NCBI RefSeq assembly: GCF_000230735.2 | Contig: NC_019962.1 | Coordinates: forward strand, 2,294,001-2,358,000 | Direction of reading: 5' to 3' | Origin: Natrinema pellirubrum DSM 15624 | GTDB taxonomy: Archaea > Halobacteriota > Halobacteria > Halobacteriales > Natrialbaceae | DNA: 64,000 nucleotides | Shown: positions 12,909-32,258 of the stretch, one piece after another | Layout: each line of letters starts with the position of its first letter | How positions within the stretch are numbered: position 1 is the first letter of the stretch | Notes under the pieces: generated by a model | What the model was told of the DNA's origin: nothing | Databases searched by the model: none | The model's input: the letters and a program-made list of their open reading frames with translations, nothing else | Translations under genes and position numbers: made by a program

Positions 12909-14000
12909 TCACGGGTCCTCGTCGTAGATGTCGCGGGTAGGCTCGCCACTGACGTCGACGACGCCGAGTGCGCCGCGGCGGGCGGCACGAGTCAGGGCGT
13001 GGTCGACGATCTTGACCGGTCCCGGCACCGGGAACTCCATTTCGGCCGCAGCCGTCGTCCCGGGTGCGACGGGCGCGGTTTCGACGTTGCGATCGGGGTC
13101 GGTCAGGAGGTCGCCGTCGCGGTAGAAGCGACTCCAGACGTTGCCGATGGCGTGCCAGGAACTCAGCAGGTTCGGGCCGCCGTTGGCGAAGTACACCCGG
13201 GCGGTCTCGCCGGTGTTGGCCTCCATGGGAACGCCGCCGTCGGGAGTGAAGCCGTAGGCCTGGCCATTGAAGACGACGTAGGTCGGCTCCTCTTTGAGCA
13301 TCGCATCGAAGTCGAAGCCGTGGTGGCCTTCCTCGCCGAGGTCGCCGTCCGTGTAGATCTCGTGCTGGCCGAGGTAGTACTCGTTGTCGACCTCGGGCAG
13401 ACCGTCCTCGGGCTCGACGAGGATCGAGCCGAACATGCCCGCGCTGATGTGCTGGTCCATGTTCGGGATCGCGCAGTGATAGATGAACACGCCCGCGTAG
13501 TCGGCGGTGAAGCTGATCTGGGTGGGATCATCGCCGGGCGCGATCGTGGTCGCGTCGGCACCGCCGCCGGGGCCGTAGACCGCGTGGAAGTCCATGTTGT
13601 GGGCGGCCACGTTCAGGTCATCCGGCACGTCGAAGGTCAGATTCACCCGGTCGCCGCGGCGCACTCGGAGCATCGGCCCGGGAACCTGCCCCTCGAAGGT
13701 CATGTAGTCGAAGGTGACCCCGGGCTCGATCTCGGCCGTGACCCGCTCGGTCCGGATCGTGACGTCGTGTTCGCGGGGCTCGTTCCAGTCAACCGGGTCC
13801 GGAATGTCCGTCGGGTCCCGCGCGATGCGGTCGACGTCGACGGCTTTGGCTGCCGCCAGCCCCTCGTCCTCAGCCGCCGACTGGTCGCCGTTCCCGCTGT
13901 CGGTCTGGGTGTCGCCACCGAGGCAGCCGGCGACTGCCAACGCGCCGGTCGCTCCGATCGCCTGCATCGCCCGTCGTCGGGTGAGATTGGATTGGGTCAT
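12909..14000 (-). CDS. nirK: copper-containing nitrite reductase (NirK)
   Basis: Reduces nitrite to nitric oxide on the outer face of the membrane. 363 residues from ATG 14000, with a twin-arginine lipoprotein signal (LTRRRAMQAIGATGALAVAGC). Two cupredoxin domains carry all expected ligands: HNMDFHAVYGPGGG (type-1 and type-2 His), FIYHCAIPN (type-2 His, type-1 Cys), the MDQHISAGM segment (type-1 His, Met) and SSWHAIG (third type-2 His). This pattern distinguishes NirK from multicopper oxidases. It is divergent from the hydrolase gene and heads the respiratory/copper cluster. Confidence 0.94.
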   Translation of the reverse strand: MTQSNLTRRRAMQAIGATGALAVAGCLGGDTQTDSGNGDQSAAEDEGLAAAKAVDVDRIARDPTDIPDPVDWNEPREHDVTIRTERVTAEIEPGVTFDYMTFEGQVPGPMLRVRRGDRVNLTFDVPDDLNVAAHNMDFHAVYGPGGGADATTIAPGDDPTQISFTADYAGVFIYHCAIPNMDQHISAGMFGSILVEPEDGLPEVDNEYYLGQHEIYTDGDLGEEGHHGFDFDAMLKEEPTYVVFNGQAYGFTPDGGVPMEANTGETARVYFANGGPNLLSSWHAIGNVWSRFYRDGDLLTDPDRNVETAPVAPGTTAAAEMEFPVPGPVKIVDHALTRAARRGALGVVDVSGEPTRDIYDEDP

Positions 14001-14054
14001 TGTCCTATCTATACATAGTGGTGGACGTATGATCAACCATCACGATGCTTCCCG

Positions 14055-15824: not shown

Positions 15825-18341
15825 ATGAGTTCCTGCTCGCTCTGCGGGCTGCCGATCCCCGACGAACCGGTGACCGCGGCCGACCTCGAGGGGACGTTCT
15901 GCTGTCGTGGCTGTCTCGAGGTGAGCGCGACCCTCGACGACGTCGATGGACTCGAGCGCGAGGCAGTAGTCGATCGCGCGCGGGAGTCGACCGACCGCGA
16001 GGTGCCGGCGGGGGCCGCGGAGACGTTTCTGGCGGTCGACGGGATGCACTGCTCGACCTGCGAGGGGTTCGTCTCGCTGCTGGGCGAGGACGAGCCGGGT
16101 ATCCTGACCGTCGAGGCGAGCTACGCGACCGACACCGCCCGGGTCGTCTACGATCCCGAGCGGCTCGAACGGGCCGATCTCCCCGAGCGGCTCTCGGGCT
16201 ACGGCTACGAGGCGCGGTTCCGCGACGGCGACGGCGGCCGGCGAGACGAGACGGAACTGATCCAGCGGCTGCTGGTCGGCGGCTTTCTCGCGATGTTGAT
16301 CATGCCGTGGTACCTGTTCTATCTCTATCCGAGCTACGTCGGTATCGAGACGGGGATTCTCTCGGTCGACGCGACCTCACCGGTCGGAATCTACCTGCCG
16401 ATGGCGATAATCGGGCTGTTGACGACCGGCGTCCTGTGCTATACCGGCTACCCCGTCCTGCGGGGCGCGTACGTCAGCCTGCGGGTCGGCCAGCCGAACA
16501 TGGACCTGCTGATCGCCGTCGCTGCCGTCTCGGCCTACGCCTACAGCACGGTCGCGCTGGCGACGGGCAGTACCCACCTCTACTACGACGTGACCGTCGC
16601 CGTGATCATGATCGTCTCGCTTGGCACCTACTACGAACGCCGGATCAAGCGCCGGGCCACCGATCTGCTTGCGGACGTGACCGCCGCGCAGGTCCGGGAA
16701 GCAACACGCCGGCTTCCGGATGGGGGCGGGACCGAAACGGTCCCCGTCGATCGGCTCGCGGCCGGCGACGAACTGCTCGTCAAACCGGGCGAGCGGATTC
16801 CGGTCGACGGGATCGTCCGTGAGGGGACGGCGGCGGTCGACGAGTCGGTCCTCACGGGGGAGTCCCTGCCGGTCACCAAGGAGCCTGGCGACCGGGTCGT
16901 CGGCGGCGCGATCGTGACCGACAGCGCGCTCGTCCTCGAGGTCGGCGAGGACGCTGAGAGTACGCTCGACCGGATCGCGACGCTCATGTGGGAGATCCAG
17001 AGCGCGACCCCGGGCGTCCAGCGGCTGGCCGACCGGCTCGCGACGGTCTTCGTCCCTCTCGTCGTGACCGTCGCAGTCCTCGTCACGGCCTGGCGGCTCG
17101 CGACGGGGACGCCCGTCGGCGACGCCGTGTTGACGGGGCTGACGGTACTCGTCGTCTCCTGTCCCTGTGCCATGGGGCTGGCGACGCCGCTGGCGGTCGC
17201 GTCCGGACTGCGCGACGCCTTAGAGCGCGGGATCGTCGTCGCGAACGCGACCCTGTTCGAATCGGCGTCGGCCGCCGAGACGGTCGTCTTCGACAAGACC
17301 GGCACGCTGACCGCCGGCGAAATGTCGGTCCGTGAGGTCCACGGCGAGGACTCGGCGATCACGTTCGCCGCGGCCGTCGAACGCCGCTCCGAACATCCGG
17401 TTGCGGGCGCTATCGTCGCCCACGCTACGGCCGAGGCGTCCGAAAACGAGGGCACGGGCATCGACGACCCGGTCGCGTCCGACGGGGGCACCGTCGACGC
17501 CGCGGCGGCCGGTGACTTGCCACCTCGCGATCACGACCTCGCGGTGACCGACTTCGAGCGACACCCCGGCGAGGGAGTGAGTGCGACGGTCGGTCTCGAG
17601 GCGTCCGATCGGCCCGCGCCCGAGGAGCGGGCGTCCGAGCCGTCGGGCACGTCCCGTCGCCGCGTCGTGGTGGGGACGCCCGACCTCGTCGAGCGGCTGG
17701 TCGGTCCGATCCCGGCGGCACTCGAGGCGGCGATCGACGAGGCGCGAGCCGGCGGCGACCTTCCCACGGTCGTCGGCTACGACGGGCGGGCGCGGGCCGT
17801 CGCGGTCGTCGGGGACCGCCGACGGGCGGAGTGGCGCGAGGTCCTCGAGTCGGTCGCCGACCGCGAGGTGATCGTCCTGACGGGCGACGACGAAGCCGCG
17901 ACGGCGACGTTCCGCGACCATCCGGCGGTCGATCGGGTCTTCGCGGGCGTCCCGCCGGACGGCAAAGTCGAGACCGTCCGGCGGCTCGCCGACGAGGGGA
18001 CCACCGCGATGGTCGGCGACGGAACCAACGACGCACCCGCACTGGCGGCTGCGGACGTCGGGATCGCCCTCGACAGCGGGACCGCTCGCGCGACCGACGC
18101 CGCCGACGCCGTCGTGACCGGGAGCGATCTCCGCGCCGTCCCCGCCGTGTTCGATCTCGCAGCGGGCACACGACGGCGCATTCGCGAGAACGTCTGCTGG
18201 GCACTGCTGTACAACGCGGTCGCGATCCCACTGGCCGCAGCGGGATTGCTCAACCCGCTGTTTGCCGCCGTCGCGATGGCGACCAGCAGCGCAATCGTCG
18301 TCGTCAACTCCTCGCGGCCGGTGCTGTCGGACGATCGGTGA
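15825..18341 (+). CDS. copper-transporting P1B-type ATPase (CopA/FixI-like)
   Basis: 838-residue heavy-metal P-type ATPase. Residues 4-30 form a Cys-rich CSLCG...CCRGC module, followed by an HMA domain with GMHCSTCEGF (about 71-80). The core has the transmembrane SCPCAMGLATP motif (Cu+ type), TGES, the phosphorylated Asp in DKTGTLT, the nucleotide-site HP in RSEHPVAGAI, and GDGTNDAP. The extra N-terminal Cys module resembles FixI/CcoI ATPases that load copper into heme-copper oxidases. That fits the nirK and CuA enzyme genes nearby, which also need copper. Confidence 0.93.
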   Translation: MSSCSLCGLPIPDEPVTAADLEGTFCCRGCLEVSATLDDVDGLEREAVVDRARESTDREVPAGAAETFLAVDGMHCSTCEGFVSLLGEDEPGILTVEASYATDTARVVYDPERLERADLPERLSGYGYEARFRDGDGGRRDETELIQRLLVGGFLAMLIMPWYLFYLYPSYVGIETGILSVDATSPVGIYLPMAIIGLLTTGVLCYTGYPVLRGAYVSLRVGQPNMDLLIAVAAVSAYAYSTVALATGSTHLYYDVTVAVIMIVSLGTYYERRIKRRATDLLADVTAAQVREATRRLPDGGGTETVPVDRLAAGDELLVKPGERIPVDGIVREGTAAVDESVLTGESLPVTKEPGDRVVGGAIVTDSALVLEVGEDAESTLDRIATLMWEIQSATPGVQRLADRLATVFVPLVVTVAVLVTAWRLATGTPVGDAVLTGLTVLVVSCPCAMGLATPLAVASGLRDALERGIVVANATLFESASAAETVVFDKTGTLTAGEMSVREVHGEDSAITFAAAVERRSEHPVAGAIVAHATAEASENEGTGIDDPVASDGGTVDAAAAGDLPPRDHDLAVTDFERHPGEGVSATVGLEASDRPAPEERASEPSGTSRRRVVVGTPDLVERLVGPIPAALEAAIDEARAGGDLPTVVGYDGRARAVAVVGDRRRAEWREVLESVADREVIVLTGDDEAATATFRDHPAVDRVFAGVPPDGKVETVRRLADEGTTAMVGDGTNDAPALAAADVGIALDSGTARATDAADAVVTGSDLRAVPAVFDLAAGTRRRIRENVCWALLYNAVAIPLAAAGLLNPLFAAVAMATSSAIVVVNSSRPVLSDDR

Positions 18342-19185: not shown

Positions 19186-19905
19186 TTAGGCTTCGGACAC
19201 CGACGCCATGGACCGCCGGTACCGCCGCAGCGTCTCGCCGTCCTCGTCTCGGAGTTCAACGATGAACTCCTTTTGACCGACCGTCTCCTCGAGGTCGGCC
19301 TCCCGGAACGTGACGTTGTACGGCGGTTCCTCGGTCCGTGTCACCTCGCTTCCACCGCTTGTCACGACGACGCTGTCGATCCCCTCGGAGTCGGAGAGTT
19401 CGCAGGTGATCTCCCCGTCCGCCCGCGTACAGGTGAGATCGGGGTTTACGTCCGCGCTCGAGCCGTCGTCGGAGGCAGGCTGGAAGTCGAGTATCATCGG
19501 CGAGATCGGGGCCGTCCCCAGAATCAGGACGATCGCGAGGAAGATCGAGAGGTTGATCTTGGACCCGTTACGGGCGATCGTCCGGACGATGGGCCGGTTT
19601 GCGGTCCGCCGGAGCCGGATCACCAGCGGGACGACGACGGCGTGAGTCAACGGCCCCCACAGGATGAGGGCGAAGCCGTAGGCCCGCACGTACTCGAGGA
19701 TCGTCCACTCGACCCCGTAGGAAAACAGGAGGTTCGACGCCGTCCAGCAGAAGAAGCCGAAAAAGAGCAGGCCGACGCTCTTGAACAGCCGCCAGATCGG
19801 CGTGTTCGCGTAGTACACGCTCAAGATGTCACGCCAGGCCTGTTGGATGACTCGCCTGACGTACTCGAGCGGCGATGCAGTCGCGTCGGTGTCGGATGCT
19901 GTCAT
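19186..19905 (-). CDS. membrane protein with extracellular C-terminal domain, unknown
   Basis: 239 residues with three membrane helices (about 42-66, 72-98, 112-135) and a C-terminal outer domain of about 100 residues containing a CysXn-Cys pair (LTCTRADGEITCELSD) and a predicted beta-sandwich (VVVTSGGSEVTRTEEPPYNVTF). It lies 81 bp downstream of the heme-copper subunit I gene on the same strand and may be co-transcribed. No function is assigned. Confidence 0.72.
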   Translation of the reverse strand: MTASDTDATASPLEYVRRVIQQAWRDILSVYYANTPIWRLFKSVGLLFFGFFCWTASNLLFSYGVEWTILEYVRAYGFALILWGPLTHAVVVPLVIRLRRTANRPIVRTIARNGSKINLSIFLAIVLILGTAPISPMILDFQPASDDGSSADVNPDLTCTRADGEITCELSDSEGIDSVVVTSGGSEVTRTEEPPYNVTFREADLEETVGQKEFIVELRDEDGETLRRYRRSMASVSEA

Positions 19906-19986: not shown

Positions 19987-21729
19987 TTAGGCCCCGATCG
20001 ACCAGAGTTGCGTGAGCAGATACCAGTTCAGCAGGTAGGTGATCACGAACGCCGCGAGAAAGACCAGACAGAGGACGAACGTGCCGCGCATCTCGTAGGC
20101 GTGGACGGGGTCATCGGGATCCTGTGCCATCCCGAGACCGCCGTCGGCGACGAGGTCGGCGTTGTCGCCGTTCTCGACGCGGTCGCCAAAGACCAGCGAG
20201 CCGACCGCCACGAGGACGAACAACACGCCGCCGGCGATCGCGAGCAGGGCGAAGATCCCGAAGACCGCAAACAGCGGCGAGGCGGCCGAGAGGCTGAACT
20301 CGGTGCCGGGGATGTTCTCGACGACCTCGGCGGTTCGACGCGGAATCCCGTAGAGGATGCCCACGTACATCATCATCAGGACGGCCACGCCCATCGCGGC
20401 CGAGTAGAAATACGGCTGGATCGCGGCCAGCCGCTTGGAGATATACTGGCGCATGAACATCGTCCGGATCACGAAGAAGACCAGGCCCATGAACGCGACC
20501 GTGGTCCCGAGGACGACGGTGCCGTGGAAGTGCCCGACCGTCGCGAACGTGTTGTGCCAGGTCATGTTGAGTTGCAGCTGGCCCATCATGACGCCGGTGA
20601 TCCCCCCGAGGAAGCCGAAGAGGATGATCGAGAAGATCGTCGACGAGAAGACCGGATTCCGCCATGGTGCGGACGTCAGCCAGCCGAACAGGCCGCCGCC
20701 TTTCCCGCGTTTACGCCGGCCGGCCTCGAGCCCGGCCGGGATGGTAAAGGCGTGGATCAGGCTCGCGAACGTCGCCCCGTAGAACGCGTAGGACGTGTTC
20801 CAGATCCGCCAGCCGGTCGAGACGGCGGGGTCGGACAGCAGGTGGTGTGCCGCCCCGAGGTTGATGAAGAACAGGTACAGAATAAAGGCCGTCCGCGAGA
20901 TCTTCTCGCTGGCGACCTCCGCGCCCGCGACGACGTGTGTCACGAAGTACCAGACCGCGATCATCGCCACGAGGTTGATCTGCTGGGTGCCGTGGCCGAT
21001 GATCCAGTACATCTGACGGTACCAGGCCGCGTCCCACCACTCGATGATCTCGAGACGCCACAGCAGGGCGGGACCGAACGCGAGTAGGCCACCGACCAGC
21101 GCCTCGACGGCGATGATCGACGTGACGAAGGCGGCGAAACTGACCAGCGGCAGCGTCTTGCCGGGGTTTTCGCGCTTCTCGAACCACATCGTCGCGAAGA
21201 ACGGCAGCGCCGCGACGACCGTTCCCAGAATGAAAACGACCGCGCCAGCGTAGAACAGCGGCGAGATCGGCATCGGCACGTAGGCCGTCAACAGCGGTGC
21301 CTCGTTGGGTGCCTCGGTGGTCCAGATGGCGTAGTTGACCAGAACCGCCCCGGCGGCCATGACGAGCCAGCCGGCCTTCGCGATCTTCGTGAACGGCAGC
21401 CGTCTGCCAAGCACCATCGGCCCGCCGACATAGAGGATGGCGATCTCCATGAACACCATCCAGAAGATCAGCAGGTTCCAGGCGTGCAGGCTCAGGTGGG
21501 TGTAGAAGGCCCCGGGCTCGAGCAACCCGATGACTTCCCAGCGGGTCATCGCGACGGTGAAGGCGAAGATTCCACCGTATAGCAGGGCGACGACCGCCGT
21601 GAGCCCGAACAGTTTGATATGGTTCTCGGTGGAACGGTGGACCTCGAGCCCCGTTACAGAGCAGGTCCGGAAGCCGTCCTCGCGGTACTCGTTGTCGAAC
21701 AGGCCGAGAACGTCCAGTTTGTGTGCCAT
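19987..21729 (-). CDS. heme-copper oxidoreductase subunit I lacking the active-site Tyr (candidate NO reductase)
   Basis: 580-residue integral membrane protein with 13-14 helices. Heme and CuB ligands are present: His82 (LSLHAWN), His246 (IIGHGTQQ), His295/296 (GAAHHLL), His400 and His402 (VGHFHG). The HNTFATVGHFH stretch resembles B-type (ba3) enzymes. Oxygen-reducing A and B enzymes have His-x3-Tyr in helix VI; here the +4 residue is Gln250. No Tyr occupies the cbb3-type helix VII position either (Glu there). Lack of the Tyr cofactor is a hallmark of NO reductases in the superfamily, and nirK is close by. It forms an operon with the CuA subunit and a one-helix protein. Confidence 0.85.
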   Translation of the reverse strand: MAHKLDVLGLFDNEYREDGFRTCSVTGLEVHRSTENHIKLFGLTAVVALLYGGIFAFTVAMTRWEVIGLLEPGAFYTHLSLHAWNLLIFWMVFMEIAILYVGGPMVLGRRLPFTKIAKAGWLVMAAGAVLVNYAIWTTEAPNEAPLLTAYVPMPISPLFYAGAVVFILGTVVAALPFFATMWFEKRENPGKTLPLVSFAAFVTSIIAVEALVGGLLAFGPALLWRLEIIEWWDAAWYRQMYWIIGHGTQQINLVAMIAVWYFVTHVVAGAEVASEKISRTAFILYLFFINLGAAHHLLSDPAVSTGWRIWNTSYAFYGATFASLIHAFTIPAGLEAGRRKRGKGGGLFGWLTSAPWRNPVFSSTIFSIILFGFLGGITGVMMGQLQLNMTWHNTFATVGHFHGTVVLGTTVAFMGLVFFVIRTMFMRQYISKRLAAIQPYFYSAAMGVAVLMMMYVGILYGIPRRTAEVVENIPGTEFSLSAASPLFAVFGIFALLAIAGGVLFVLVAVGSLVFGDRVENGDNADLVADGGLGMAQDPDDPVHAYEMRGTFVLCLVFLAAFVITYLLNWYLLTQLWSIGA

Positions 21730-21731
21730 CG

Positions 21732-22274
21732 TTATCCCTCCTCCACGACGATGGTGCCGTGCATGCTCCGGTGGCCCTGCCCACAGAACTCGTTACAGAT
21801 GATGTGGTAGGTACCGGGTTCGTCGAAGGTCATCGGCACGACCCACTCGTAGCCGGGCAGCACCTGCAGGTTGATCTGTTTGCTCAGTGCGTCCTCGGGA
21901 CGAAGCGAGAAGCCGTGTTGGACGTCCATCGAGTTGAGATGGAAGTCGTACTCCGTTCCCGTCTCGAGGACGACCGGTGCGCCGTCCCACTGGAACCGCA
22001 TCGCCTGGAGATAGACGTCCTGTTCCGGCGGAACGAGGCCGTCGTCGGTCTCCTCGGCGCGCTCTTTGTAGTCAGTCAGCTTCTCACGGAACTCCTCGTC
22101 CTCGACGCGGAACGTCTCGCCGATGGGGTTCTGGTCGCCGACCCGGGTCCAGGCGCTCATCCAGCCAAAGAGGATCAGCGACCAGCCGACGCCGAGCCCG
22201 AGCCAGATCGATTCGCGCCTGTTGACGGGTTGGTCCCACCAGTTTCCGTCCGGGGGTTTGATCGGTGACGTCAT
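21732..22274 (-). CDS. heme-copper oxidoreductase subunit II (CuA domain)
   Basis: 180 residues: one N-terminal membrane anchor (about 24-42) and a cupredoxin domain. All CuA ligands are seen: His120 (MDVQHGF), Cys160, Glu162, Cys164, His168 and Met171 in CNEFCGQGHRSM. It therefore accepts electrons from a small donor such as a halocyanin and passes them to subunit I, unlike cytochrome-c-containing NorC. Stop and subunit I start are 2 bp apart. Confidence 0.92.
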   Translation of the reverse strand: MTSPIKPPDGNWWDQPVNRRESIWLGLGVGWSLILFGWMSAWTRVGDQNPIGETFRVEDEEFREKLTDYKERAEETDDGLVPPEQDVYLQAMRFQWDGAPVVLETGTEYDFHLNSMDVQHGFSLRPEDALSKQINLQVLPGYEWVVPMTFDEPGTYHIICNEFCGQGHRSMHGTIVVEEG

Positions 22275-22278
22275 TGAA

Positions 22279-22428
22279 TCACCCCATGGGAACCGAGAAG
22301 ACGTCTATCCAGCCCCACGCAACGTACGACAGCGCGAAAAACAGGAGCGCTGCCGCTGCGAGTAGCCAGATGCGGTCGTACAATCGTTGCATCGTTGGTT
22401 CTGATTCGGTTCGTTGTGATGGTGCCAT
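22279..22428 (-). CDS. one-helix small subunit of the heme-copper enzyme
   Basis: 49 residues from ATG 22428 (MAPSQRTESE...), with a single hydrophobic helix LLAAAALLFFALSYVAWGW. First gene of the operon, 4 bp before subunit II. Similar tiny subunits accompany ba3-type oxidases (subunit IIa, CbaD-like). The start is uncertain: ATG 22491 and an internal ATG at MQRLYDR are alternatives. Confidence 0.68.
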   Translation of the reverse strand: MAPSQRTESEPTMQRLYDRIWLLAAAALLFFALSYVAWGWIDVFSVPMG

Positions 22429-22572: not shown

Positions 22573-23235
22573 TCAGACTGCGGCGACGTACAGTTGGCCG
22601 AGGCCGGCCACGACCAGCACGACCCCCGCCAGTCGGACCACGCGGTCGACGTAGCCGGCGATGCGGCCGGCACCCAGTGCGTAGCCGAAGGCCGTCGCGA
22701 CCGTGATCGCGACCGTCAGCGACCCGAACCCGACGGCGTACGTCCCGAGTACCAGCGCCGTCTCGAGCGGCGGCATCGTCAGCGACCGAAACGCGAGCCC
22801 GAGGAACAACGGGAGGACACAGGCGACCGCCGCCAGCGCGTACATCGCGCCGAAGAGGCCGAACCCGAGAACGGTCGACCGGCGCTCGGGCAGGAGGACG
22901 TGGACGGCACCACTGCCGCCGTAGGCCACCCAGAGCCCGAGTGCGATCAACCCGACGCCGACGCCGTACTCCAGTAGCGGCAACGTCTGGCCGACCGTCT
23001 CGCCCGCGACGACCGCGGCGACCGAGAGCGCGCCGAGAACCCCCACCGCGCCGGCGGCGGCAGCGAGCCCGCGGGCGAGCGTCCCCGACAGCGGCGGCGC
23101 GGTCTCATCACCGGTCGCGGCGACGTAGTAGCCGACGTACCCGGGCAAGAGCGCGTACGCACACGGTGAAAAGAACGTAGCGATGCCGGCACCGAGGGCG
23201 AACACCACGGTGCCGAGGAGTTCGCCACTCGCCAT
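22573..23235 (-). CDS. CcdA/DsbD-type thiol-disulfide membrane transporter
   Basis: 220 residues, six membrane helices, with the two redox cysteines in FSPCAYALLPGY and VACVLPLFL. CcdA moves reducing equivalents across the membrane to outer thioredoxins. ATG 23235 lies just after the TGA of the TlpA-like gene, and a GTG at 23244 is possible. With TlpA and SCO it forms an assembly module, probably reducing the cysteines of CuA. Confidence 0.9.
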   Translation of the reverse strand: MASGELLGTVVFALGAGIATFFSPCAYALLPGYVGYYVAATGDETAPPLSGTLARGLAAAAGAVGVLGALSVAAVVAGETVGQTLPLLEYGVGVGLIALGLWVAYGGSGAVHVLLPERRSTVLGFGLFGAMYALAAVACVLPLFLGLAFRSLTMPPLETALVLGTYAVGFGSLTVAITVATAFGYALGAGRIAGYVDRVVRLAGVVLVVAGLGQLYVAAV

Positions 23236-23236
23236 G

Positions 23237-23767
23237 TCACCCACCCCCGGCAGCGTCGATCGCCGATCGGATCTCGTCGGCCGATTTGCGCCCGCGACCG
23301 GACCACGTGACCGTATTCGATTCGTCCAGCACGAACGCGTACGGAACGCCCGAGGCGTCGAGGGCCTCCGTCAGTTCGAGATCGGTATCGAGTGCGACGG
23401 GCCAATCGCCGTCGTGATCGCGCCACCAGGTCGCGATGTCGTCTCGAGTGATGGTGTTCCCGACGGGTTCGCTCGTCGCGGAGACGAACTGGACCTCGTC
23501 GTCGACCGTCCCGTGGACCGCCGCGAGCGGCTCCATCTGGCTCTCACAGACGCCACACCAGGTGGCGAACAGTTCGACGAACGTCACGCGGCCACGTTCG
23601 GGAACGCTGGCGGTTCCCGCGGTACTTCCGGGTGCGTCGATCGTCTCGAGTTCGATCGGTTCGACGGCGTCGCCGCTCTCGAGGGGGTTCCATCCGCCGA
23701 CCGCGAGCGCGCCGCCGCCGAGGGCGGCGAGTCCGGTGACTCCCACGAGGACCTCGCGACGGCGCAT
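23237..23767 (-). CDS. exported TlpA-like thioredoxin
   Basis: 176 residues with an RRR-led hydrophobic signal (MRRREVLVGVTGLAALGGG) and a thioredoxin fold carrying the WCGVC active site (ELFATWCGVCESQMEPL) and the cis-Pro region (GVPYAFVLD). It is predicted to be attached to, or outside, the membrane, where it would reduce SCO or CuA cysteines. Three bases downstream of the SCO stop and overlapping the ccdA start region: a tight operon. Confidence 0.9.
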   Translation of the reverse strand: MRRREVLVGVTGLAALGGGALAVGGWNPLESGDAVEPIELETIDAPGSTAGTASVPERGRVTFVELFATWCGVCESQMEPLAAVHGTVDDEVQFVSATSEPVGNTITRDDIATWWRDHDGDWPVALDTDLELTEALDASGVPYAFVLDESNTVTWSGRGRKSADEIRSAIDAAGGG

Positions 23768-23770
23768 CGG

Positions 23771-24520
23771 TCACCACCCCTCCACGACGGTCCGTGCGTC
23801 TTCGACGATATCGTTGCCGTCGGGCGAGCCGCCCGTGTAGGCCCGCTCGACGACGCCGTCCTTGTTTACGAGCAGGATCAGGGACGTGTGGACGAACTGT
23901 CGGTCGTGGTCCATTTCATCGTGATCCGTCTCGTCGTCCCCGCCGTCGGACGACTCGTCGCCCTGCTCGAACGCGACGCCGAACGTGTCCTGAACGACGG
24001 CCTTCGCGTCGTCGGGCGTGTCCGGCCGGAGGAAATACCAGTTCCCAGCGTCGAAGTCGACGCCGTAGTCCTTGCCGTAGGACTCGAGGACGTCCGCCGT
24101 GTCGTATTCCGGATCGAACGTCGTCGGGAGGAAGGCGATCTCGTCCGCGTAGTCGCGATCGGTCGCATCTGCCTGCACTCGCCGCAGGGCGGCGGTCAGT
24201 CCCGTACAGACAGTCGTACAGCTGGTGTATATGAACGTCAGCATCAGGTGACGGTCGCCGGTGAACTCCGTGGTCGTGATCGAGCGCTCGTGGAGCGGTG
24301 CCGGGACCGTGGCTTCGGGAATCTCCTCCCCGTAAATCGGGTGCGGAAGCCCCGATTCCTTGATCCGCTCGTGGTTTTCCGGCGCTGATAGGACGGGCCT
24401 GTCGCCGTCGCTGTCGGCGCCGTTCAGGGACAAACACCCCGCGACGGACGCGCCGACGGCCGTCGCGCCCACTGTCTGCAGTACCGTTCGTCGATCGAGA
24501 GTCGGATCTGGGCGGTTCAT
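23771..24520 (-). CDS. SCO1/SenC-family copper chaperone
   Basis: 249 residues from ATG 24520 with a Tat lipoprotein signal (LDRRTVLQTVGATAVGASVAGC). The thioredoxin-like domain has the copper ligands CTTVC (in FIYTSCTTVCTGL) and the distal His in FVHTSLILLV. SCO proteins insert copper into CuA. An Asp/His-rich insert (DDETDHDEMDHD, about residues 195-210) could bind extra metal. Upstream region 24521-24668 contains a perfect CGAACATGTTCG palindrome. Confidence 0.92.
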   Translation of the reverse strand: MNRPDPTLDRRTVLQTVGATAVGASVAGCLSLNGADSDGDRPVLSAPENHERIKESGLPHPIYGEEIPEATVPAPLHERSITTTEFTGDRHLMLTFIYTSCTTVCTGLTAALRRVQADATDRDYADEIAFLPTTFDPEYDTADVLESYGKDYGVDFDAGNWYFLRPDTPDDAKAVVQDTFGVAFEQGDESSDGGDDETDHDEMDHDRQFVHTSLILLVNKDGVVERAYTGGSPDGNDIVEDARTVVEGW

Positions 24521-24586
24521 GATAATTGCTCCTTGCGGCTGTCGGTGGTAAAGCGCTGCTCGGATTCCCGCCCCGGTAGAAACACG

Positions 24587-24598
24587 CGAACATGTTCG
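24587..24598. promoter_or_regulatory. perfect palindrome CGAACATGTTCG upstream of the SCO gene
   Basis: 12-bp perfect inverted repeat, 67 bp before the SCO start. It is the best match in the window to the motif repeated upstream of the DUF2249 and regulator genes, and is inferred to be an operator. Confidence 0.55.
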
Positions 24599-24668
24599 AC
24601 AGCGACCCACCGAGCGGCGCGTCCGACGGACGGCTCGAGGCGTGCCGGCCGACCCGAGACACCGTCGT

Positions 24669-25250
24669 TCATGGCCCCTCCTCGAGTACGGGACGGGTTT
24701 TCTCGTTGAACAGTTCGATCGCGTTGACGACCTGCAACGGGAGTTCCGGCTGGGGGTCGGCCATCGCAGGCTCGTCGGTGGGGTCGGGCCAGCCGACGAC
24801 GATGCGGCCTACGTTCCCGGCGACTTCGTGTGAGGTACAGACCTGCTGCGTGTCGACGTAATCGTAGACGCCCTCGGTATCGAAGGTGTGTTCGTACTCG
24901 GAGCCGACCCCGGTCAGTCGGTCGCTCCCCCACGGCTCGACGCTGCCGGGAGTTCGGTGCGGCCCATGGCTATCCTCGTGGTAGCCGGTGACGTCGTGGC
25001 GACCGGTCTCGACGAGCCACTCGACGGTCCCGCCGGGAACGACGTGGACGATCTGCGGGTCGAACTCGGGATACGGCCGGGAGTTCGCCGTGATCGTGAC
25101 TGCCTCGGCAGGGGTGCCGAGTTCCCCAGCGTTTTCGGGCGGCTGCCCGTCATCCGACTGCTCGTCGCCGTCGGCGAGACAGCCCGCCAACGCGAGGCCG
25201 ACTGTACAGGCGGTCGATCGAAGGACGGTACGGCGTGAGAGGTGTGTCAT
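24669..25250 (-). CDS. halocyanin-like cupredoxin with altered axial ligand
   Basis: 193 residues: Tat lipoprotein signal (LSRRTVLRSTACTVGLALAGC) and a plastocyanin-type domain (VVPGGTVEWLVETGRHDVTGYH). Type-1 copper ligands His (GRHD), Cys and His (QVCTSHEVAG) are present, but the usual Met five residues after the second His is Asn (HEVAGN; codon at 24813-24815). Probably an electron donor to the CuA subunit encoded nearby. A 36-residue tail after the domain is atypical. Confidence 0.87.
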   Translation of the reverse strand: MTHLSRRTVLRSTACTVGLALAGCLADGDEQSDDGQPPENAGELGTPAEAVTITANSRPYPEFDPQIVHVVPGGTVEWLVETGRHDVTGYHEDSHGPHRTPGSVEPWGSDRLTGVGSEYEHTFDTEGVYDYVDTQQVCTSHEVAGNVGRIVVGWPDPTDEPAMADPQPELPLQVVNAIELFNEKTRPVLEEGP

Positions 25251-25474: not shown

Positions 25475-26905
25475 TCAGCCCGCAACGACGAGCGTCTCGA
25501 GAACGATCGCCAGCAGGATCGCCCCGAGATAGTAGTTCGAGACGTAGAACGACCGCAGCGCGACCTCGTCGGTCGGCTGCCGGAACTGGCGGACCACCGA
25601 CCGCAGGAAGACGGCGCCGAGGGCGACCGACGTGATGCCGTAGACCCAGCCTAAGCCGGCCACCCATCCCAGGCCGCTGGCGGCCAGCAACGTTGCGCCG
25701 AGGTAGAACGCGATGTGGCGACGCGCCGCGGCGACGCCTTCCGCGACCGGGTACATGGGAAAGCCCCCACGCGCGTAGTCGTCGCGATACGCGATGGCGA
25801 GACTGTAGAAGTGGGCGGGCGTCCACAGGAAGATCACCGCCGCGAGGGCGACGGCGGGAAGCCCGACGCGCCCGGTGACGGCGACCCAGCCGATGACTGC
25901 GGGCAACGCACCTGCACCGCCGCCCAACACCGTGTTCCAGGCCGTGTTCGGCTTCAGCACGACGGTATAGAGGGCGGCGTAGTACCCGATCGCAGCGAGG
26001 GTAAACACCGCTGCGAGCGCGTTGACCCACGTCAGGAGAACGGCCATCGACACGGCCGTGAGCCCGACCCCGAACGCCACGGCGTTGCGCGCCGGCACGA
26101 GGTCGTGGACGAGCGGCCGATCCGACGTTCGGTCCATCCGCCGATCCCGGTCGCGCTCGTAGACGTGATTGAAGGTTCCGCTCGCTCCGATCGCGAGGAC
26201 GCCGCCGGCAAGCGTCGCAAGCGCCGTCGACGGCTCGAGCGTCGCCCCGGAAAGCGTCGCCAGTCCCATCCCCGCCAGCGCGACCAGACAGAGCAGCCAC
26301 ATCAGTCGCGGTTTGGTCAGGGTCAGGTACGCGCCGATCGTCCGTTTGAGCCGGGCGCTCCGACCGGTCGGCTGCGGGGCCGTCGCCGGGTCGCCGCCCG
26401 CGTCATCGCCGCTGGTCGGCGACTCGGGCGTCGGCGTCAACCGGTCCGTCTCCTCCTCGAGCGTGCCGTCATCGAGGGTGAACACGAGCGCGACGAGGAG
26501 ACAGGCGAAGATGGCCATCGCGAGCGCGAGGTGGACGGGGCCCGCGACCGACGGGCCACCGACGGCGATGGTCGCGCCGAGGAGGACCTGGACGGGAAAG
26601 AGAACGAGCGCACAACCGATGAGGGCGGCCACACGGCGGTTGACCTCGACCCGGCGGGCGGCGAGCCCGGATGCGAGGACGAGGCAGCCGGCCACGAGCG
26701 CCGCCACGCGATGGCCCCAGTAGAGGAGGGTGTCGCCGGTGGCCGAGCCGATGATCGGATCGGTCGAGCAGGTCGGCCACGCGCTGCAGGCGGCCGCGCT
26801 ATCGGTCGTCGAGACGGCGGTCCCGAGCGCCACGAGGACGTACGCCGCGATTACCGTCGCTGTCAGTAGATCCGCGAACCGTCGTCGGCTGTGTTCCGTT
26901 GTCAT
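25475..26905 (-). CDS. ctaB: heme O synthase (protoheme IX farnesyltransferase) fused to a CtaA-like half
   Basis: 476 residues. Residues about 1-140 form four helices with the CtaA/COX15-like WGHRVAALVAGC and PVHLALAMAIFACL histidines. Then comes an acidic linker (about 145-185). The UbiA-type domain (about 190-476) has LTKPRLM, NHVYERDRDRRMDRTSDRPL and YTVVLKPNTAWNTVLGGGAGALP. This makes heme O, needed by heme-copper enzymes. Haloarchaea commonly carry this fusion. The CtaA half is half the size of bacterial CtaA. Confidence 0.92.
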   Translation of the reverse strand: MTTEHSRRRFADLLTATVIAAYVLVALGTAVSTTDSAAACSAWPTCSTDPIIGSATGDTLLYWGHRVAALVAGCLVLASGLAARRVEVNRRVAALIGCALVLFPVQVLLGATIAVGGPSVAGPVHLALAMAIFACLLVALVFTLDDGTLEEETDRLTPTPESPTSGDDAGGDPATAPQPTGRSARLKRTIGAYLTLTKPRLMWLLCLVALAGMGLATLSGATLEPSTALATLAGGVLAIGASGTFNHVYERDRDRRMDRTSDRPLVHDLVPARNAVAFGVGLTAVSMAVLLTWVNALAAVFTLAAIGYYAALYTVVLKPNTAWNTVLGGGAGALPAVIGWVAVTGRVGLPAVALAAVIFLWTPAHFYSLAIAYRDDYARGGFPMYPVAEGVAAARRHIAFYLGATLLAASGLGWVAGLGWVYGITSVALGAVFLRSVVRQFRQPTDEVALRSFYVSNYYLGAILLAIVLETLVVAG

Positions 26906-26992: not shown

Positions 26993-27256
26993 TTAGACAC
27001 GCCAGATGACGGTCACGACGTCGTCGTCGCGTTCGACCGTCTCGTAGCTGTAGCCGCGGTCGTCCAGTTTCGGGAAGAGGAACTGGGGAACGCGATCGTT
27101 TCGCTGGACGAGAACCGTCTCGTCGGGTAGGTCGACGAGCGTCTCGAGCGTCCGCTGGAGCGGCTCCGGCGGCCCGGCCGATCGGACGTCGATCGTCTCC
27201 GTTTGTCGGTCGTCCGGTGCGTCGGTTCGGTCGACGATCGAGGCTGGCGATTGCAT
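26993..27256 (-). CDS. DUF2249 protein 1
   Basis: 87 residues; core from DVRSAGPPEPLQRTLETL to VVTVIWRV, with the beta-alpha-beta-beta pattern of DUF2249 (TusA/SirA-like fold). It is the most diverged of three neighbours: the usual PKPL signature is FPKL here. DUF2249 proteins cluster with nitrite/NO-reducing genes and hemerythrins in many prokaryotes; the mechanism is unknown. A palindrome-type site lies 39 bp upstream of its ATG. Confidence 0.85.
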   Translation of the reverse strand: MQSPASIVDRTDAPDDRQTETIDVRSAGPPEPLQRTLETLVDLPDETVLVQRNDRVPQFLFPKLDDRGYSYETVERDDDVVTVIWRV

Positions 27257-28005: not shown

Positions 28006-28680
28006 ATGGCCCAAGCAACACTCAGTCTCACGATGCCCGAGGAGGTCTGGATCCAACAGATATCGACGGATTACCCCGAATCGACCTTCCGGGTGCTGGC
28101 CGCCGTCCCCGGCTCCGAGTCCGGGTTCGCTCTCGTCCGGATCGCCGGCTCGTCGGTGCCGGAGGTGATCGAGGACATGAACGATCACCCCCAGCTCACC
28201 GAACTCACGCTGGCCCAGTGGAGCGACAACGAGGCGACGGTCCACTTCGAGACGACGGCCCCGCTGTTGCTGTTTTCCTCTCGAGAGTCGGGGATGCCCA
28301 TCGAGCTACCGGTGGAGATTCAGGACGGCGAGGCGAAAATCGAAGTGACCGGTTCCCGCGAACGCCTCGCCGAACTCGCCGAACAGCTCGAACACTTCGG
28401 GCTCCAGTACCGGATCGAACACGTCCGCGAACGACTCCACGAGAGCCAACTGCTCTCCGAGCGCCAACTCGAGGTCGTCGTCGCTGCGGTCGACGAGGGC
28501 TACTACGACACCCCGCGGCGCTGCTCGCTGACCGATCTGGCGGATCACTTGGACATCGCCAAGTCGACCTGCAGCGAGACGCTCCACCGGGCCGAGGAGG
28601 CGATCGTCAAGCGGTTCGTTGAGGACCTCCCGGGACTCGACGACGAGGAGGAACTCGAAGAGCAACTCGCGACCAGCTAA
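28006..28680 (+). CDS. bacterio-opsin-activator-type HTH regulator
   Basis: 224 residues. The C-terminal HTH_10 domain (about 148-205) reads LSERQLEVVVAAVDEGYYDTPR, with the CSLTDLADHLDIAKSTCSETLHRAEE recognition segment. The N-terminal 145 residues form a Bat-like sensor domain without the cysteine cluster of NarO-type oxygen sensors. It sits between the DUF2249 genes and the ferredoxin/NrfD operon. Two palindromes lie in its own promoter and more lie before its neighbours, so it is the best candidate to bind them. Likely signal: low oxygen or N-oxides, by context only. Confidence 0.9.
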   Translation: MAQATLSLTMPEEVWIQQISTDYPESTFRVLAAVPGSESGFALVRIAGSSVPEVIEDMNDHPQLTELTLAQWSDNEATVHFETTAPLLLFSSRESGMPIELPVEIQDGEAKIEVTGSRERLAELAEQLEHFGLQYRIEHVRERLHESQLLSERQLEVVVAAVDEGYYDTPRRCSLTDLADHLDIAKSTCSETLHRAEEAIVKRFVEDLPGLDDEEELEEQLATS

Positions 28681-28939: not shown

Positions 28940-30604
28940 ATGAGTACGGACGACGAATCATTCCACCCGCTCGGCGAGGAGTGGGAAGACGAACTCGAGT
29001 CGATGCTCGACGATACCGAGTACGACAGCGAACTCGGTATGGAGATGGCCCAAGACGCGATGCGGGTCACGAAGGGCGAACTCTCCGAGGCCGAATTCCA
29101 CGACCGCTACCACGAGGAGGTCATGGAGGAGTTCGGCGAGGACGAGCGCCCGACCAAGGAAGCCTACGAGGCGGCCCAGGAGGAGGCGAAAGGAACTGCC
29201 TCCAGAATGCTCGACAAGTTCGACGGCGACGGCGACGAAACCCGTCGTGAAACCATGAAGAAGATGGGGGTCGGCGCTGCGGCCGTCGGGATGGGCGCGT
29301 TCGGTACCGTCGCCGAGGGCCCCGAGAACAGCATCGCGGAAGAAGGGGGCCACGGCGGTCCCCGACAGGAGACCACTGAGGAAAGCGACACCCAGTGGGG
29401 GATGACGATCGACCTCGAGCGCTGTGACGGCTGTCTCTCCTGTATGACCGCCTGTACCGAGGAGAACGACATCGATAAGGGGGTCAACTGGATGTACGTG
29501 ATGGCCTGGGAGGACGAAAACCACAGCGGCCCCGGAGAAGAAGGCGGCACCGACGTTTACTCCGACTTCAACCTGGGAAGCGACTACAACATGCTCGTGC
29601 GGCCGTGCCAGCACTGTACGGACGCCCCCTGTGAGAAGGTTTGTCCGACCACGGCCCGCCACACCCGCGACAAGGACGGGATCGTCCTGACCGACTACGA
29701 CGTCTGTATCGGCTGTCGGTACTGTCAGGTCGCCTGTCCCTACGGCGTCAACTACTTCCAGTGGGACGAGCCCGACGTCGCCTACGAGGACATCGACGGC
29801 CTCGAGAACCCCGAGGATCCCGACGAGATCACGCACGCCGAGTACGAACACGGCGAGCGCTGGGTCGACAGCCGCGCGCCACGTGGCGTCATGAGCAAGT
29901 GTACGTTCTGTCCAAGCATGCAGGACGGCCGCCAGGGCGAGGAACACGTGGGTACGACTGCCTGCGAACGGGCCTGTCCGCCGAACGCGATCCAGTTCGG
30001 GAACGTCAATGACGAGCGCAGCGATCCCTCTCAGCACCGTGAACACCCGTCCAAGAGTCGCGCCATCGTTCACTTGACGAACGGGACCGAGAGTCCCAAA
30101 TCCGCTCCGACGGCGGATCAAATCGATAGCGCTCTCAGCCAGGGCGACGACCTCGAGACCGCGATCGAACAGATCGACGGGCTCACCGAAGACATCCTCG
30201 CGGTCATGAAGTCGATCGAGATGGTCAGCGAGGGTCTCGAGCCCGGCGACGAGGAGAACAATTCCATCCTCCAGAACGAACAGGCCATCATCTCGGCGGT
30301 CGAGACCTTCCAGCAGTACGTCGACCTCGATACCGAGGAGGCGTACGATACGCTCGGACTCGGCGACGGTAGCGAACAGGACGTCCAGATGCGACTCAAG
30401 CAGTACACGGGCGATCCGAGTTCGTTCCAGCTGCTCGAGGACGTCGGGACGAACCCGAACGTCACCTACCTCGGCCAGCAGCCCGGACCGGAGGCCCACC
30501 AGGTCGAAGGGCCGACCAAGTACGAGGACGCCGGCCTGCTCGACAAGCGTCAGGAGTACCTCGACGAAGAGACGGTCGGACGTATTGACGGGGTGTCGCT
30601 ATGA
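28940..30604 (+). CDS. exported four-cluster ferredoxin subunit (NrfC/ActB-like)
   Basis: 554 residues. A 95-residue acidic N-terminal domain (Ferredoxin_N-like) precedes an internal twin-arginine signal (TRRETMKKMGVGAAAVGMGAF), so the iron-sulfur part lies outside. Sixteen cysteines bind four [4Fe-4S] clusters: CDGCLSCMTAC, CQHCTDAPCEKVC, CIGCRYCQVAC, CTFC...CERAC. A 200-residue C-terminal extension has no recognised fold. It overlaps the NrfD gene by ATGA at 30601. It probably passes electrons between the NrfD quinone site and an unidentified partner; no molybdenum subunit is adjacent. Confidence 0.9.
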   Translation: MSTDDESFHPLGEEWEDELESMLDDTEYDSELGMEMAQDAMRVTKGELSEAEFHDRYHEEVMEEFGEDERPTKEAYEAAQEEAKGTASRMLDKFDGDGDETRRETMKKMGVGAAAVGMGAFGTVAEGPENSIAEEGGHGGPRQETTEESDTQWGMTIDLERCDGCLSCMTACTEENDIDKGVNWMYVMAWEDENHSGPGEEGGTDVYSDFNLGSDYNMLVRPCQHCTDAPCEKVCPTTARHTRDKDGIVLTDYDVCIGCRYCQVACPYGVNYFQWDEPDVAYEDIDGLENPEDPDEITHAEYEHGERWVDSRAPRGVMSKCTFCPSMQDGRQGEEHVGTTACERACPPNAIQFGNVNDERSDPSQHREHPSKSRAIVHLTNGTESPKSAPTADQIDSALSQGDDLETAIEQIDGLTEDILAVMKSIEMVSEGLEPGDEENNSILQNEQAIISAVETFQQYVDLDTEEAYDTLGLGDGSEQDVQMRLKQYTGDPSSFQLLEDVGTNPNVTYLGQQPGPEAHQVEGPTKYEDAGLLDKRQEYLDEETVGRIDGVSL

Positions 30605-31953
30605 GTACGAAGGAGCCGACCGAAGCGGACATCCTCCGCCCGATCAACACGTTCACGAAGAAGTACATCATCCTGTACGGGGCCGCTGCACTGGGCCTCG
30701 TCGCCTTCCTGATCGCGTGGGCCTACCAGCTCCAGAAGGGGCTGATCGTTACCGGCCTCGGCGACTGGGGGAGCGGCGGTGGCTCGACGTGGGGCCTGTA
30801 CATCGGCGCGTTCATCTGGTGGGTCGGTGTCGCACACGGCGGCATTATCCTCTCGGCTGCCGTCCGACTGCTCGGCATGGACCGCTATATGCCGATCGCC
30901 CGACTCGCGGAGATGACGACGATCGGTGGCCTCTCGGCCGCCGGCTTCTACATCCTGGTCCACATGGGTCGTCCGGACCGGATGGTTACGAGCGTCATCG
31001 GTCACTACCACATCACGGTTAACAACTCGCCGCTAGTGTGGGACGTGACGGTCATTACGGCCTACTTCGTGCTGTCGGCGACCTACCTCGGACTGACGCT
31101 TCGCTACGACATCAGCCGGCTGCGCGACGATCTGCCGGACATGTTCGAGCCGGTCTACAAGATCATGACGATCGGTTACTCCGAGAAGGAAGACGAAGTC
31201 ATCGACCGGATGGTCTGGTGGCTCGCGGCGGCGGTCATCATCATGGCCCCGCTCCTGCTCCACGGCGGCGTCATCCCGTGGCTGTTCGCACTGCTCCCGG
31301 CGATGCCCGCCTGGAGCGGTGGGATTCAGGGGCCGATGTTCCTCGCCATCGCACTGATGTCGGCGATCAGCGGCGTGATGATCATCTCCTATGCGTTCCG
31401 TCGTGCCTACGACTGGGACCACATCATCACCGACGACATCTTCCGCGGGCTGCTCCTGTGGCTTGGCTTCTTCACCCTGCTGTTCCTCTGGTTCCAGCTG
31501 CAGGCCAACATCAACGGCGTCTTCCTCGGTCCGACCAACAGCGCGGTCGCGGCCGAAGCGAAGATGGCCCACCCGCTGTATCAGATGGCGATGGCGCTGG
31601 CCTTCCTCACGCTGGTCTATATCTTCCTGCAGGCGATTCGCCCGTCGCTGTTCAGTAAGAAACGGGCGCTGATCGCCAGCTGTGCGATCCTCACTGCGAC
31701 GCTGACCGAGAAGATCCTGTTCGTCGTCGAAGGGTTCCTGCACCCCACGTTCGACATCTACGCCAACACGCCCGGGACCTACTTCCCGAGCGCGATCGAA
31801 TGGCTCTCGCTCGTCGGAACGGCCGGATTGGTTGCACTTTTATTCCTCAACCTCTCGAAGCTCGTTCCCGTGGTCGAACTCCACGCGGTCGAACACATGC
31901 GCGGCGACCACGAACACGGTGACGACGCGACCGAACCGGAGGTGGAAGCATGA
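30601..31953 (+). CDS. NrfD/PsrC-family integral membrane quinone-interacting subunit
   Basis: 450 residues, about nine to ten membrane helices (FIWWVGVAHGGIILSAAVRLLG is the typical first conserved helix of NrfD-type proteins, as in ActC/PsrC). It exchanges electrons with menaquinol and the ferredoxin subunit. Translationally coupled on both sides by ATGA overlaps (30601 and 31950). Length and helices fit ActC/NrfD of about 400-470 residues. Confidence 0.9.
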   Translation: MSTKEPTEADILRPINTFTKKYIILYGAAALGLVAFLIAWAYQLQKGLIVTGLGDWGSGGGSTWGLYIGAFIWWVGVAHGGIILSAAVRLLGMDRYMPIARLAEMTTIGGLSAAGFYILVHMGRPDRMVTSVIGHYHITVNNSPLVWDVTVITAYFVLSATYLGLTLRYDISRLRDDLPDMFEPVYKIMTIGYSEKEDEVIDRMVWWLAAAVIIMAPLLLHGGVIPWLFALLPAMPAWSGGIQGPMFLAIALMSAISGVMIISYAFRRAYDWDHIITDDIFRGLLLWLGFFTLLFLWFQLQANINGVFLGPTNSAVAAEAKMAHPLYQMAMALAFLTLVYIFLQAIRPSLFSKKRALIASCAILTATLTEKILFVVEGFLHPTFDIYANTPGTYFPSAIEWLSLVGTAGLVALLFLNLSKLVPVVELHAVEHMRGDHEHGDDATEPEVEA

Positions 31954-32258
31954 GTTCAGCACTGGCACTCTCGTCGACGCTGCTGTACCACGGCTACGAC
32001 GGGACCAGCGGCTTCACCGGCTTCGCCAACGAAGGGACGTGGGTGATCTTCGCGATCATCCTGGTTCCGGTCTACATCATGCTCGCGGCGTGGTTCCTCG
32101 GTGAACCTCGCGACACGAAGTCCGGGCTGATGGGCGTTGGCTATCTCGTCGGTCTCACGACGTCGATGTGGGTCGGGATGTTCGTCCTGACCGTGCTGAT
32201 CGGCGTCGTGTTCTACGGTGGCCCGCCGGAGCCGATCAGCAGCGTCGGCCCGCCGTAA
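31950..32258 (+). CDS. small two-helix membrane subunit of the ferredoxin/NrfD complex
   Basis: 102 residues with two helices (WVIFAIILVPVYIMLAAWF and a longer one around TSMWVGMFVLTVLIGVVFYG). Not recognised on its own; the ATGA overlap with the NrfD gene argues for a third structural subunit of the complex. Confidence 0.78.
   Translation: MSSALALSSTLLYHGYDGTSGFTGFANEGTWVIFAIILVPVYIMLAAWFLGEPRDTKSGLMGVGYLVGLTTSMWVGMFVLTVLIGVVFYGGPPEPISSVGPP

Follow-up and report, generated by a model that had tools for sequence, protein, structure and literature searches.

A stretch of 64,000 nucleotides from the genome of Natrinema pellirubrum DSM 15624 (contig NC_019962.1, positions 2,294,001 to 2,358,000; hereafter, the window) very probably encodes a nitric oxide reductase of the eNOR type, together with genes dedicated to its maturation. 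As an eNOR, the enzyme is of a known but often overlooked kind that is normally annotated as cytochrome oxidase, and it does not represent a new enzyme class. Its family, its phylogenetic clade, the genes linked to it and its co-occurrence with nitrite reductase all suggest that it would reduce nitric oxide (NO).

According to the part of PMC8756737 that treats these enzymes, a conserved glutamine at the position of the oxygen-reductase tyrosine marks eNOR subunit I and separates eNOR from other NO reductases (NORs), the second subunit is of the cupredoxin type, and eNORs are found in Natronomonas and across the rest of the Halobacteria. Passages of PMC11388526, citing Murali 2024, include eNOR among the biochemically characterised NORs that are related to B-family oxidases and attribute to it NO reduction under microoxic conditions. 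The literature that we searched, which excluded the primary eNOR paper, contained no activity measurements on a haloarchaeal eNOR. The enzyme assayed in that primary paper, Murali 2024, is reportedly the eNOR of Rhodothermus marinus.

RESULTS

Subunit I carries glutamine in place of the active-site tyrosine

The reading frames of subunits I and II are both intact (Table 1). An alignment with the Thermus thermophilus ba3 oxidase that covers most of the length of subunit I assigned His82 and His402 to the low-spin heme, His400 to heme b3, and His246, His295 and His296 to CuB. In the same alignment, His246-Gly-Thr-Gln-Gln250 fell on His233-Pro-Ile-Val-Tyr237 of the ba3 enzyme. The description in the initial annotation, in which all heme and CuB histidines are kept and HGTQQ stands where oxygen reductases have His-x3-Tyr, is therefore accurate. 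The motif HG[ST]QQ is conserved in all 52 relatives of subunit I, and Gln249 and Gln250, at whose positions 8 of 8 B-family oxidases have valine and tyrosine, are found in 56 of 56 eNORs; the loss of the tyrosine is thus not due to chance. A tyrosine supplied at the position used by cbb3-type enzymes, which in CcoN precedes the CuB His-His pair by six residues, was ruled out, as the initial annotation had also maintained: subunit I has Ile289 there, and this residue is invariant among its relatives.

The 56 eNORs compared all share Arg21, Cys23, Trp90, Glu95, Gln249, Gln250, Asn252, Ser278, Tyr285, Asn311, Tyr314 and His326, none of which is present in the 8 B-family oxidases. The helix that follows the His-His pair bears two eNOR-specific tyrosines, Tyr314 (56/56) and Tyr317 (55/56). 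By sequence alignment, Tyr261, Ser323 and His326 are conserved at positions of the ba3 K-channel, with Tyr261 where ba3 has Tyr248. The window enzyme is similar to ba3 (B-family) oxygen reductase in overall fold, CuA-bearing subunit II and ligand histidines, but differs from it in having no His-x3-Tyr tyrosine, in having His326 in place of the K-channel Thr312, and in belonging to a separate clade. The predicted structure of subunit I resembles those of ba3 and aa3 oxidases (Z about 30), a likeness that informs on fold alone, and its pLDDT near the active site is moderate (65-85). A sequence search found no solved eNOR structure, the best chains being those of ba3 and 7deg.

Subunit I belongs to the eNOR clade

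Subunit I is 99% identical in N. thermotolerans, 65% identical to its Rhodothermus orthologues, and 38-40% identical to Thermus and Thermomicrobium plasmid enzymes, in which the motif is HGAQQ; the corresponding motif of the Defluviimonas enzyme is HSSQQ. In a maximum likelihood tree of 44 sequences, subunit I grouped with Rhodothermus (support 100/100) and then joined the QQ enzymes of Thermus, Thermomicrobium and Defluviimonas (100/99). The phylogeny proposed in the initial annotation was thereby obtained in part: the eNOR clade stood apart from ba3, A-type, cNOR and qNOR sequences, some of the outgroups being joined by long branches, in a tree that left out bNOR, sNOR, gNOR and nNOR and had no characterised eNOR reference by accession.

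The window enzyme has in common with the eNORs of Natronomonas, other Halobacteria, Chloroflexi and Rhodothermus the glutamine, the six histidines, and a CuA subunit II encoded upstream of subunit I, and no difference was found in either catalytic subunit. The initial annotation had seen here a candidate novel NOR. Gln250, the clade and the nirK context uphold the reading as a NOR; its novelty is forfeited to the described eNOR family, and a novel class is ruled out by the signature glutamine, the clade placement and the description in the part of PMC8756737 cited above. The CuANOR/bNOR of Bacillus, given in passages of PMC11388526 as a CuA-bearing NOR related to B-family oxidases, is likened to the window enzyme by description only.

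Subunit II has a complete CuA site and lies among maturation genes

The CuA ligand set of subunit II is complete, as had been noted from the sequence, and consists of C160-N-E-F-C164-G-Q-G-H168-R-S-M171 (CNEFCGQGHRSM) plus His120. The best solved relative of this subunit is subunit II of the T. thermophilus ba3 oxidase (E 6e-19). Its gene adjoins that of subunit I at related loci and is immediately upstream of it here, and subunit II, subunit I and a third gene are arranged head to tail on the minus strand (Table 1).

Table 1. Genes of the eNOR locus and its surroundings, numbered from the first nucleotide of the window
Feature	Coordinates	Strand	Evidence
eNOR subunit I, heme-copper catalytic, 580 aa	19987-21729	-	Pfam COX1 168.6 bits; alignment; maximum likelihood tree
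eNOR subunit II, CuA cupredoxin domain and one N-terminal hydrophobic segment, 180 aa	21732-22274	-	CNEFCGQGHRSM and His120
Third gene linked to eNOR, product of 239 aa with about three membrane helices and one Ig/Fn3-like domain	19186-19905	-	downstream of subunit I
CcdA/DsbD-like membrane protein	22573-23244	-	by inspection, no curated family match; homologues at 12 of the loci searched
TlpA/ResA-like thioredoxin	23237-23767	-	Pfam Redoxin 46 bits
SCO1/SenC-family copper chaperone	23771-24610	-	Pfam SCO1-SenC 50.7 bits
Halocyanin-like blue copper protein	24669-25205	-	Pfam Copper-bind 27 bits, over cut-off; TIGR03102 below cut-off
CtaA-like and CtaB (heme O synthase) fusion	25475-26905	-	TIGR01473 287 bits, over cut-off; COX15-CtaA 25 bits, below cut-off
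DUF2249 protein	26993-27256	-	Pfam PF10006 54.5 bits
HTH_10 (bacterio-opsin activator type) regulator	28006-28680	+	Pfam HTH_10 66.6 bits; homologues at 23 of the loci searched
Copper P1B-type ATPase	15825-18341	+	TIGR01511 over cut-off; homologues at 37 of the loci searched
NirK, copper nitrite reductase	12909-14036	-	TIGR02376 363 bits (cut-off 296)

Upstream and in the same direction are genes for the CcdA-like, TlpA-like, SCO1 and halocyanin-like proteins and the CtaA/CtaB fusion; on the opposite side lie the genes for a copper ATPase and for NirK. A nirK gene about 6 kb away and a halocyanin-like gene nearby, both pointed out in the initial annotation, are thus present. The SCO1/SenC protein likely functions in CuA assembly and the TlpA/ResA-like thioredoxin likely serves copper or thiol maturation; the halocyanin-like protein is a candidate electron donor, and the HTH_10 protein possibly regulates the cluster. 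Heme-synthase and copper-ATPase homologues lie near eNOR at most loci, with homologues of the CtaA/CtaB fusion at 35 of 55 loci searched, and a NirK homologue is found within about 8 kb of eNOR at 25 of 52. Behind the regulator, window positions 28940-32258 (+) encode Fe-S and NrfD-type membrane subunits with no obvious molybdopterin subunit alongside.

A third gene is linked to eNOR

At 49 of 52 loci, those of Rhodothermus among them, subunit I is followed by the third gene in the same orientation. Two of the three remaining loci end too early to tell, and the bacterial locus L055 seems to lack the gene. In a few genera, subunit I and the third gene are separated by roughly 1 kb that contains a heme-synthase homologue, and in Rhodothermus the third-gene frame starts near where subunit I ends or overlaps that end. 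Among 116 haloarchaeal genomes, the gene is present in 23 of the 24 that have eNOR, the exception being a genome in which the edge of a contig truncates subunit I. Outside eNOR genomes it was encountered only as a broken remnant, in a genome without an eNOR match (G036:C2:672528-672878; L090:4905-5373:-), which suggests loss of the whole unit of eNOR and third gene. The gene was not found in the sampled genomes of the host's phylum outside Halobacteria, in plasmids, or beside the more distant eNORs of Thermus, Thermomicrobium and Defluviimonas.

A model of the third protein (pLDDT 86.8) combines three long helices with a domain that is Ig/Fn3-like, and Cys159, Cys168 and His88 are invariant. 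The protein had no Pfam or NCBIfam match other than a sub-threshold one to Big_7, no PDB relative by profile search, and no confident fold match, Ig/Fn3-like domains being retrieved at E just above 0.001. From its linkage, the third protein is most likely an eNOR subunit or assembly factor. The parts of the published eNOR descriptions on which we drew do not include a linked third gene, and it is plausible that the gene is new to the eNOR literature. We tentatively propose, at somewhat less than even confidence, that it encodes an undescribed, obligatory component of the eNORs of haloarchaea and Rhodothermota, either a structural subunit near CuA or a protein required for assembly, with the Ig-like domain probably outside the membrane.

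The host genome also encodes a qNOR

A search of the 4.35-Mb host genome for a separate qNOR, a check suggested in the initial annotation, revealed an intact gene (G000:C1:3702604-3704937; L006), whose product combines a fused cytochrome c-like domain (PF22085) with PF00115 and has the features of a qNOR. The genome therefore encodes two enzymes for the same proposed reaction, 2 NO -> N2O. qNOR (NorZ), unlike the window enzyme, comprises a single chain to which a cytochrome c-like domain is fused, has a glutamate in its active site and has no CuA. In qNOR and cNOR this glutamate comes after the first metal-site His (H-x-WVEG), and a cytochrome c partner or fused domain is present; the window protein instead has HGTQQ and a CuA partner. 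The proposal that this locus completes nitrite reduction to N2O without qNOR accordingly fails for this genome, in which eNOR does not make up for an absent qNOR. The genome also contains two nirK genes and four tyrosine-bearing oxidases, one ba3 and three A-type, and neither canonical NosZ nor narG gave a match over cut-off.

Outside the window, a gene at G000:C1:2385488-2387248 (L095:7264-9252:+) encodes a fusion protein with a CuA-like domain at its N terminus (CNVYCGDGHAQM) and a cytochrome d1 domain (Pfam PF02239, 254.7 bits). This protein, whose solved relatives are NirN and NirS, is probably Tat-exported, and its gene is followed by those for two d1/NirF-like beta-propellers, a radical SAM/SPASM protein and a glutamyl-tRNA reductase. 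Adjoining them, G000:C1:2392529-2396649 (L095:14530-18650:+) encodes DMSO-reductase-II-family molybdopterin and Fe-S subunits. The fusion and its neighbors possibly constitute a heme d1 cluster in a haloarchaeon; a survey of haloarchaeal denitrification gives NirK as the sole nitrite reductase class there. The fusion is present in 8 of the 116 haloarchaeal genomes, several of which have a second d1-domain protein.

eNOR co-occurs with nirK in haloarchaea

In the sample of 116 haloarchaeal genomes, eNOR is present in 24. All 24 have nirK, in contrast to 37 of the 92 others (Fisher P 1.4e-8, uncorrected for relatedness among the genomes, which are not independent), and this co-occurrence supports the reading of the window enzyme as a NOR. 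A qNOR accompanies eNOR in 17 of the 24 genomes and is absent from 7, all with nirK, so that the scenario of nitrite reduction to N2O without qNOR fits these other haloarchaea. In G049 (locus L091), which lacks qNOR, a single 16 kb cluster brings together eNOR, the third gene, NirK, TlpA, CcdA and two each of halocyanins and SCO proteins.

Loci of Rhodothermota/Bacteroidota (L035, L042-L044, L048 and L049) have eNOR subunit II, subunit I and the third gene in common with haloarchaea. The position of haloarchaeal eNOR beside that of Rhodothermota/Bacteroidota in the tree suggests transfer between the groups, in either direction.

DISCUSSION

In the pathway that we propose, NirK would reduce nitrite to NO outside the membrane, and the halocyanin-like protein would deliver electrons to the CuA site of subunit II, from which they would travel by way of the low-spin heme to the high-spin heme/CuB center of subunit I, where, by analogy with the family, two NO would be converted to N2O and water. 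The active-site tyrosine of oxidases donates an electron and a proton for O-O cleavage. Because this residue is replaced by glutamine, the center may be better adapted to forming an N-N bond than to reducing O2 fast. Protons would probably be drawn from the cytoplasm via a modified K-type channel that includes His326 and Tyr261, in which case eNOR may conserve energy. Since the host also has qNOR, eNOR probably adds a second path for NO, one that is fed through CuA and perhaps used at low oxygen.

It is unlikely, though a reading to be taken seriously, that the enzyme is a NOR used mainly for detoxification, for example under some oxygen, and not for respiration. The qNOR of the host could carry respiration; Rrf2 and DUF542 genes, whose types are frequently associated with the NO response, adjoin the Thermus eNOR locus; and the microoxic NO reduction mentioned in passages of PMC11388526 fits such a role. 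Against it, the CuA site, the halocyanin, and the heme and copper maturation genes imply a respiratory investment, and seven genomes carry nirK and eNOR without qNOR.

We consider it improbable that the enzyme is instead a B-family (ba3-like) oxygen reductase that dispenses with the cross-linked tyrosine, with Tyr314 or Tyr317, for example, acting as electron and proton donor. The invariance of Tyr314 and near-invariance of Tyr317, both specific to eNOR, the ba3 and aa3 oxidases as closest solved relatives by sequence and fold, and the cytochrome c oxidase label that annotation pipelines give to the relatives favor such an enzyme. However, the clade is separate from that of true ba3 oxidases, the association with nirK is complete in the genome sample, four tyrosine-bearing oxidases are already encoded in the genome, and PMC11388526, in the passages cited, lists eNOR as a biochemically characterised NOR. 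Membership in another CuA-bearing NOR family (bNOR/CuANOR, sNOR, gNOR or nNOR) is highly improbable: these families, too, are relatives of the B-family oxidases, and a cupredoxin subunit II likewise accompanies sNOR and gNOR, as parts of PMC8756737 and PMC11388526 relate, but the former states that glutamine at the tyrosine position marks eNOR against other NORs and describes Halobacteria as eNOR hosts.

The assignment as eNOR bears on how NO reduction is scored in haloarchaea. Surveys of this group (PMC8400030, PMC8301774) give qNOR (NorZ) as the only haloarchaeal NOR class, a view that the eNOR counts reported here and the eNOR literature contradict. About a fifth of the sampled haloarchaeal genomes (24/116) have eNOR, always with nirK in the same genome. 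In the seven of these genomes that have no qNOR, keyword surveys would score NO reduction as absent and miss the potential for N2O formation. The third gene, in turn, offers a simple genetic way into the construction of a CuA-type NO reductase.
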